Below, one piece after another: positions 2,838 to 5,398 of a stretch of DNA of 64,000 bases; the stretch's first letter is position 1; each line of letters starts with the position of its first letter. Where the stretch lies: NCBI GenBank assembly GCA_013396915.1, contig VWZL01005013.1:62001-126000 (forward strand). Reading direction: 5' to 3'. The position numbers and the translations under genes are program-made. The DNA comes from Stercorarius parasiticus. Lineage: Eukaryota > Chordata > Aves > Charadriiformes > Stercorariidae. The notes under the pieces are model-generated. The model did no database searches. It saw only the letters and a list, made by a program, of their open reading frames with translations, and was not told the origin of the DNA.

Positions 2838-4186
2838 TGTTTAAAAGCATTTTAAGAGAACGTGTTAGTGTGCTTACAATAGCGGCCATGGTAGTCGAAT
2901 GTCGAGCCGAGAGTTTAACGCTAGGATCACTGGAGGTCTTGCCTGATACTGCTTCTGCAGCCTTCAGAAGACAAATGTAGTTTATTACAACCTCGTCTAT
3001 CTTAGCTATAATTTCCTGCTGCTGTGTTTCAGAGTTCATGACTTTAACTAAACGCATGCAGGCTTCTGTTAAGCAACAGAGTACTTGAAAGCTGGAAGTC
3101 ATAGCTAAAAGCATTTCCTCAGGGCTTTTATCAGCCATGGCCATTTTCCTGCAGGCACTTCCCAACTGTCTCGATTCCATAGATAACAGTTGTTTGTACT
3201 TAGAAAGTTTAAGGTCATATGTTTCTGGATGTAAATCTCTCTTGCCCATACTTGCTCGGACCAGTGAGAGTAGCTCATTGGCATCCTTTTGTGCTGCAAT
3301 AAATCCATCAGGCATTGCATACGTCTTCTCTTTCATCACATTTATTCGCGTGATTCGTGCATCGAAGGCCACATCGTTGAGATTCACATCAATTTGGCCA
3401 CCTTGGATGTCAGCACTGCTCTTCTCATGCGCGTTGACTGCCTCATCTTGTGGGGGCTCAGCAGCTCTCGGGGACTCCAAGACTTTCTGCTCATTTTCAC
3501 TGGAAAATGACTCACCGACTGGTTCTGCGAGCTCACACGGACCCTGAGGTTCAAAGAGACATGAGAGCTGATGGCTGTCTCCATCATCTTCATCATCATT
3601 GTCATCGTTTCCTCTGCTTAGGAAACAATAGCTAAAGGGGCCATGACACCTCCAGGTGCTGGTGTCCAGCTTCCGCAAGGGCAACGTTCGACACTGCTTG
3701 GAGTCCTTCTGACTGGAGCCTGTGCCCGAACACCTCTTACTGTCCTTCCTATCAGTGCTGACGTACACACAACTCTGGGAATAACTTTTTGACAGCTTTT
3801 TGCCCAGGGGGAGTTCCACCCTTCTCTCTGATTTGGGTTCGTCCCTTCGGGTGACGTCCAGGCATTTCAAGCTGGCTGCGGCTGCCTTCTTTTCAAACAG
3901 CATCTCAATGCCTGCAGATCCTCCAATGATGCTGCTGCTGCGTCTCAGCACTTTCCTGTTGTGCGGCATCCTGAGGCTTCCTCCTATCATGTCATATGGC
4001 CGTAAACTAACTGTTGCCCCACAAGCCTGATTTACTTTGGGAATGTCACAAGAGTCTTGATTTTGACTTGGCACCTTTGATTCTGATAGCATGGATGATA
4101 GCATGATGGAGTCAGCTAGAGGCTGTCTAGGAAAAGCTGTAGGCATGCCTCCTTGTCTTCCCTTTTCAGGCTCTGTGAAAGCTACA
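2833..4186 (-). CDS. FRMPD4: FRMPD4 last exon: ETTV stop (short form) or 446-codon extension (long form)
   Basis: Two acceptors share one pyrimidine tract (CTGTCTGCTCTTCTACTACCCCTAG). With the first (exon start 4186) the split codon becomes GTG, followed at once by TAG: the protein ends ETTV, a class I PDZ ligand. With the second (exon start 4172, CACAG) the codon becomes GAG and an ORF stays open to the TAA at 2835-2833, adding 445 residues (w1175-w1619). The extension has a Ser-rich basic part (RKVLRRSSSIIGGS), a Cys/Ser section, an acidic run (GNDDNDDEDDGD), and about 170 C-terminal residues rich in amphipathic helix, with SSFQVLCCLTEACMRLV at the centre. The ORF start at 4227 lies in the intron and is not used. 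I believe related C-terminal regions occur in FRMPD1 and FRMPD3, but could not check. Confidence 0.88.
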
Positions 4187-5398
4187 CTAGGGGTAGTAGA
4201 AGAGCAGACAGAATAATTAAGCATCACCCTGATAATATTCAGAGACTGAACTTTTAAATACCTTTAACAGTCAGGACAACTGGATTCCTGGTATTTCCCA
4301 GTGGTCTCTGTTCCTCAAAATATTTCACAAAGCATTCATTGCTAGTTTCTCATGCCTTTTGTATTTCATTAAGATGCCTCTTAAAATCTATCAACAAATT
4401 ATAATCTAGGAATAGTTAGTTGTTCATTCCACTACAGCAGACTCATTTCAAAAAAGGAATAGAAAATCATCCATAAAATATCCTAAATCTCCTCTAATGT
4501 TGCATGTTTTCTATTAACTAATGAGATTAATATTTTCATGTTAAAATACCTTATTTAACTATACTTGAGAAGTTATGGAAAGATGTACCCGTGGCAATTT
4601 TGGTTTGGTTACATATTTTTTTTGGCAGAGAAATAGCATGTCTCATTTTATCTCCTAGTCTGTTCCACTTTTGGATATTCATGCATTCACACACTACTGC
4701 TACATTTGGGTTGCAACCCAGGAAGAGGGAAATATTTAAAACCCAACTGAAAGAATTTCCAATGTTATCTCTGAAAAGCTACATTTTTTTATAACAGTAA
4801 ATTCATAAAATCTCTTGAAATTGGAACTTAAAAATGCGGTAATGGTTCTGTATGTAAATTATTCTTTAAGGAAACACCTACTGTGAGATGGTGAAGTAAT
4901 ACATGCTTAATAAGATAGCGACGTTTTCTCATCCTTACATTTAGAGCTTTTTATTCATACTGGCATGGTTTTGATAATCTGCTAAAATAGCATGTAAGAT
5001 ACAAACTAAATGAATCACAGTTTTTTCTCTCCTACATTAATACACCTTGTGAAGTCATCTTATAATCTAACAAGTATCCTGGATCTCCAGTGACTATGGA
5101 TTTTGGAGAGGCTTCCAAAGAGTGGAAAAGAGGCCTCTCCACCAGCGTCTCCCCAGATATTTTCAACTGTAATGAGAGGTTTTTAAAAAAATTGAACTTT
5201 GTAAGCAGCTCATATGAACATCTCAACACACACAACTAAAATGAACAGATACATCAAAAGGTCTAATCCCCCTGCCCGCTACAGCTTGATGATGTAGTTT
5301 TAGGTAAAGATAATGTAAATATCACAGCTAGTCCTCAACCTTTACACGTAGCTTTAAAAAAAACAACAAACATAAGAAACGCTTTATTACTGCTGTAC
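4187..5398 (-). other. FRMPD4: FRMPD4 intron with in-frame read-through tail
   Basis: A 1212-nt intron with donor GTACAG and the tandem acceptor at its end. If it is retained, the frame continues 23 residues (GTAVIKRF... to VKVED) and stops at 5328-5330, giving a hydrophobic tail instead of ETTV. Otherwise it holds AT-rich DNA with no repeat I recognise. Confidence 0.85.

Follow-up and report, generated by a model that had tools for sequence, protein, structure and literature searches.

The end of the brain scaffold protein FRMPD4, either a short docking tag or a 449-residue tail, appears to be set by two splice sites that lie five bases from each other. The likely explanation is an old tandem acceptor in the gene, TAG/TGTAG/C (slashes mark splice boundaries), that toggles between an ETTV end and a 449-residue, talin-rod-like tail. 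The initial annotation had proposed that a tandem acceptor exchanges an end with the ETTV PDZ ligand for a C-terminus that is long and conserved; this part is supported, and both ends are found in jawed-vertebrate records.

The FRMPD4 locus and its neighboring acceptors

The window is the whole 64,000-nucleotide stretch of DNA that was analyzed. FRMPD4 lies on its minus strand, where tblastn places 13 segments of P0050, an FRMPD4 model from Calidris pugnax, at 33829-2836 with 80-100% identity and the exons span some 31 kb. The tblastn match of P0050 at 8070-6997 (97%) covers an exon whose last base is 6999 (...AATTCAG/GT), and the exon at 6670-5399 matches the solved FRMPD4 LGN-binding peptide 4wng_B with an E of 4.2e-22. 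FERM and PDZ domains, the LGN-binding segment, and the KETT end identify the gene as FRMPD4; FERM_M and PDZ are above cut-off in P0050, the protein on which domains were scored in place of the window translation. P0050 also carries a FAK1/PYK2-type FERM C-lobe (31.2 bits versus a cut-off of 27.7). Viral contigs gave 13 pattern matches and no relatives by tblastn. The portion of PMC13060437 consulted describes FRMPD4 as a gene for intellectual disability and epilepsy, and as one proposed for hearing loss. The features of the 3' end of the gene are as follows.

6999..8068, minus strand: FRMPD4 exon before the last two large exons (5' end approximate; 3' end phase 1)
5399..6670, minus strand: penultimate coding exon, 1272 nt, ending ..KIKETT + G and carrying the LGN-binding segment
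5397..5398, minus strand: 5' splice site GT (ACAG/GTACAG)
4187..5398, minus strand: intron, 1212 nt long when measured to acceptor 1 and 1217 nt when measured to acceptor 2
4187..4226, minus strand: conserved intron tail, LNxSxCxSTTPS in the long frame; candidate branch point and pyrimidine tract, their signal roles putative
4187..4188, minus strand: acceptor 1 (CCCCTAG/TG); exon start 4186, giving GTG TAG and the ETTV end, with TAG at 4184-4182
4182..4183, minus strand: acceptor 2 (TGTAG/CT); exon start 4181, 5 nt past acceptor 1, giving ETT-AFT-EPEK... and 449 extra codons
4173..4174, minus strand: the second acceptor of the initial annotation (CACAG/AG); exon start 4172, in frame, giving ETT-EPEK... 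and 446 codons
2833..4181, minus strand: last coding exon of the long isoform (AFT + 446 codons + TAA)

The upstream exon ends at 5399 on the minus strand with AAA GAA ACT ACA G followed by GT, confirming the ACT ACA G end read earlier. Three neighboring AGs close the intron, CCCCTAG/TGTAG/CTTTCACAG/AG, with exon starts at 4186, 4181, and 4172, the last two being 9 nt apart and in the same frame. The initial annotation recognized the outer two of these and overlooked the one between them. Scripted joining at 4186 reproduced the GTG TAG junction and ETTV end that had been claimed for it. Two close AGs each give a complete protein, with the ETTV stop following 4186 and 449 codons following 4181. 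The 4186 form has the free C-terminal S/T-X-V of a class I PDZ ligand, and the long form ends in MLLNK. A crude acceptor score gave 3.6 for 4186, 2.14 for 4181, and 2.28 for 4172, and did not single out 4181; among 80 other intronic AGs, two score above 4186 and four above 4181. The weight matrix behind this score was home-made, with frequencies from recall, and is not discriminating.

In the proposed mechanism, the AGs would have a common pyrimidine tract and branch region and would compete, and the TAG stop and the frame shift would do the rest. Use of the first AG (4186) would add V and then TAG to give a protein of ~1,315 aa with ETTV as a free class I PDZ ligand. Use of the second AG (4181) would shift the frame, change ETTV to ETTA, and add 449 residues. 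The two mRNAs would differ by 5 nt. Nonsense-mediated decay is not expected for a stop in the last exon, and it is not expected for the short form because the ETTV stop sits there.

Conservation and predicted fold of the tail

The long frame has no stop over 445 codons and the other two frames have 42 and 24; the chance of 445 open codons is 1.5e-11 by a base-composition estimate. A search with the tail protein found 48 homologues, with 95% identity at the top (birds, judging by identity), 49% for a ray, and 35-40% for the named teleosts. Thirty-five tails aligned to the window at 39-95% identity, and 34 of the 39 invariant columns fall in the last 166 residues. This agreement among homologues, and a frame open far past chance expectation, uphold the conserved-protein character first ascribed to the long ORF. 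An AATAAA hexamer (window 2832-2837) overlaps the long-form stop; if it serves as a polyadenylation signal, the mRNA would stop immediately after the coding sequence.

The last 192 residues were modeled alone and gave one predicted domain.

2836..3318, minus strand: predicted talin-rod-like helical bundle (model residues 32-192; AlphaFold2 pLDDT 73.8, pTM 0.72)

Three of the five models had a lower mean pLDDT, 47.5-55.4, and the model of the whole 476-residue ORF was poor (pLDDT 45). The bundle model has a predicted rod-type helical fold and matches talin rod domains by Foldseek and VIA-align. The first 14 rows of the structural comparison include the talin rod bundles R5, R6, R9, and R11 and the FAK/Pyk2 FAT domains, at 9-16% identity to the tail. 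In Pfam, Talin_IBS2B matched 22 of the 35 tails below threshold at E<=1 (best 0.0063), and P0264 gave an E of 0.002; the 12.5-18.5 bits, where printed, lie under the 27-bit cut-off for a talin-rod assignment. The tail of the bird paralogue had no talin match in Pfam, and the tail P0001 matched no solved structure by sequence at E<=1. Caprin-2, raised as a relative of the tail by a profile search of solved structures (E 0.12-0.42), was taken as a chance match. On these models, the tail probably folds like part of talin and the residues before the bundle are probably a disordered linker. A talin-like fold alone shows no function.

Long and short forms in sequence records

A search with the joined exons gave 667 matches, and junctions were counted in the 120 of them that were listed. 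These 120 are FRMPD4 proteins of birds, turtles, crocodile, squamates, caecilians, coelacanth, and marsupial and placental mammals, with lengths of 1,233-1,793 aa and mostly ~1,660-1,765. The best long match, P0050, is 97% identical over the searched region and has the junction KETT-AFT-EPEK. A long FRMPD4 isoform is already annotated as a gene model (RefSeq X1/X2 and others, ~1,760 aa) that uses the 5-nt acceptor. These are the same protein as described here, but they are models only, and the tail and the ETTV switch are undiscussed in the material examined. The models may be partly homology-driven. A literature search over titles and abstract openings returned no account of a long FRMPD4 C-terminus, and the word isoform is absent from the main text of the FRMPD4 paper examined. 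The FRMPD4 tail is recorded as a separate gene in P0008 (Sylvia), P0024 (Sciurus), and P0037 with P0196 (Macrotis), and two of the tail records are named FRMPD3 or FRMPD3-like. These are probably split or misnamed FRMPD4 models. A reading of the Sylvia and Sciurus records as true FRMPD3 was rejected; they match the tails of full FRMPD4 models, and the paralogue in this genome is 30-43% identical.

A second search, sized for short forms, gave 116 matches, 44 of which end in ETTV (one as RETTV, P0278) and 14 in KETT or KETTG at the exon end. The remainder consists of 45 that run into the intron, eight that run through it to the tail end, and five others (P0147 and P0235 are long-type). Proteins ending in ETTV come from sharks and rays (P0211, P0217, P0219, P0245), lungfish (P0240), Amia (P0241), frogs, and mammals. 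Both forms are recorded in at least two species, Dermochelys (P0129 long, P0191 ETTV) and Latimeria (P0147 long, P0204 ETTV).

Transcript-like contigs use the first acceptor. P0007 starts with MSSDPQDKRNY-SVAFTEP, in which the upstream exon, read in its -1 frame, is joined to TGTAGC-like sequence; this start implies a transcript spliced at acceptor 1, or a copy of such a transcript. P0180, P0231, and P0263 hold coding sequences of 1,236-1,314 aa with ETTV ends on contigs of 3.8-6.2 kb, and should be transcripts because the window exons are spread over some 31 kb. Acceptor 1 is used in all four, with P0007 as the spliced ORF and P0180 as an ETTV contig that back it. The long-form junction is known from gene models only and was found in no transcript-like contig among the 120 listed of 667 matches, which suggests a long form that is probably minor or confined to certain tissues or times.

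5431..5433, minus strand: ATG opening the long ORF on the acceptor-1 mRNA (-1 frame, MSSDPQDKRNY/SVAFTEP...; the P0007 N-terminus)

From this ATG, the tail ORF is open in full on the short-form mRNA, and a separate tail protein is conceivable.

Three other explanations were weighed against the 5-nt switch. The initial annotation had placed the acceptors 14 nt apart, at 4186 and 4172, with a long form reading ETT-EPEK and 446 added codons. The 4172 site does give GAG and 446 codons to the stop at 2835-2833, is in frame with a CAG, and has a counterpart in the lizard model P0135 (Phrynosoma), but this is the only KETT-EP junction among the 120 listed long proteins. KETT-A(F/L/M)T-EP, the 4181 type, is found in 117 of them, and two are odd models (P0107, P0140); A(F/L/M)T is kept in the 4181 type and is ACT in the fish model P0040, which is spliced as KETT/ACTE. 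A 14-nt pair is accordingly very unlikely, and the acceptors are placed at 4186 and 4181, 5 nt apart, with 449 codons added.

It is equally improbable that the tail is made from the acceptor-1 mRNA, either as a separate protein from an ORF that overlaps or lies downstream (with ATG 5433-5431 or the GGM-P methionine as its start) or as a recoded fusion by -1 frameshifting. P0007 is an acceptor-1 contig with the long ORF open from the upstream ATG, and the Sylvia and Sciurus records begin at the GGM-P methionine. However, ten rows have isoleucine in place of that methionine (P0057 emu, P0093 ostrich, P0106 and P0109 tinamous, P0124-P0128 sea turtles, and P0153 elephant), the residues preceding it are conserved, and the whole exon has no in-frame X XXY YYZ slippery heptamer. 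A start at GGM-P was rejected because the methionine is not conserved. Only a little more probability is given to a long form that arises from noisy splicing or from an annotation artefact, with the tail as a relic that is now mostly 3' UTR. Assembled contigs show only acceptor-1 junctions, and short-range acceptor variation can be stochastic according to the part of PMC1449888 consulted, but the tail protein is conserved from the ray and teleosts to birds, with 39 invariant columns in 35 sequences. The preferred explanation is a switch between 4186 and 4181.

Origin of the intron, possible function, and related splice systems

In this bird, a stop that ends at 5328 closes the FRMPD4 frame where it continues into the intron, and the long frame is open only from 4263. 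ORFs with an unspliced junction preserve the intron tail as LN(Y/D)S(V/L)C(S/F)STTPSVA in 14 tetrapod-like sequences and LNDS(F/L/V)C...SVA in nine fish-like sequences. AG/TGTAG/C encodes S-V-A, so its presence in these 23 of the 25 unspliced ORFs showing the intron tail is evidence, at the protein level only, for a DNA signal. The two without S-V-A are P0044 and P0047, both Oryzias. P0044 (Oryzias melastigma) reaches the donor site and reads KETSAG there versus KETTG elsewhere, and the insert and tail remain. The seemingly joint loss of donor and acceptor signs, in this one species, fits a motif kept for splicing, and P0044 may have lost the switch in favor of a constant long form.

P0264, P0273, P0274, P0275, P0277, P0280-P0283: read-through fish-like ORFs, with the insert GSEAYRQLINYLTVSQMHQGGKL...

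These nine ORFs read through the donor (KETT-GT...) with 204-228 open codons to S-V-A and then the tail, and eight of them reach the tail end (P0273 is cut short). The insert is 43-61% identical between P0264 or P0273 and the others. P0264, the one of the nine so compared, is nearer to FRMPD4 than to the paralogue (308 versus 139 bits). By reading frame, the insert is a candidate exitron with its own conserved segment in the nine fish-like ORFs, and the stop ending at 5328 excludes an exitron in this bird.

At E<=0.001, this genome has one further match, a paralogue that is probably FRMPD3 (G000:C1183; L003, 10500-20400) and in which no KETT end was noticed. Its single open 972-aa exon has a relative of exon 6670 near the start (57% over 44 residues) and runs unbroken to a sequence related to the FRMPD4 tail (30% over 444 columns). 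A simple account suggested by these sequences is that one ancestral coding exon became an exitron, as in these fish-like ORFs, and that in tetrapods the exitron turned into a non-coding intron whose two acceptors keep both ends; the direction of the exon-to-intron change is taken from one paralogue and not from a tree.

The C-terminal ETTV reportedly binds PSD-95, a finding said to come from the original Preso paper by Lee in 2008. One passage on PSD-95 binding credits the PDZ domain of FRMPD4 instead. The long form would lose PSD-95-type PDZ binding because its free ETTV end is lost. The switch would further require that the acceptors compete in the same cells and that useful amounts of the long form are produced. 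By analogy to talin and FAK, the bundle might bind actin, LD motifs, or the protein's own FERM domain. A broader and tentative proposal is that an ancestral coding stretch of the last exon became a removable intron, and that the 5-base switch toggles between PSD-95-type docking and a talin/FAK-like form across jawed vertebrates. The rod bundle of the latter may bind partners such as actin or LD-motif proteins, or may fold back onto the FERM domain of the same protein, and synapses would thereby switch between scaffold docking and a state that is cytoskeletal or autoinhibited. If a FERM protein has a talin-rod-like tail that can be switched, it would offer a simple test of talin-like autoinhibition in synaptic FERM scaffolds. 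Variants in the tail or in the five inter-acceptor bases would be overlooked if the ETTV form is the only one used in clinical and cell work.

The sections of PMC13247117 consulted describe a class of alternative 3' splice sites, non-triplet in spacing, whose use changes the C-terminus. FRMPD4 resembles that class in that a frame-shifting acceptor moves the stop to give a longer C-terminus and a shorter 3' UTR without nonsense-mediated decay, and differs in adding 449 residues with a predicted folded domain and in having a short end that is itself a conserved motif. NAGNAG and other short tandem acceptors, as excerpted from PMC1449888, likewise have closely spaced AGs that are both usable; the FRMPD4 spacing is 5 and not the 3 of NAGNAG, so the frame changes. 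The nine fish-like ORFs resemble exitrons such as that of FOSB, as presented in the excerpt of PMC4484396, in that the "intron" consists of open codons within a coding stretch, and other fish records end in ETTV as splicing the insert out would give. Unlike the exitrons of that excerpt, the intron of this bird is non-coding and two acceptors keep both ends.
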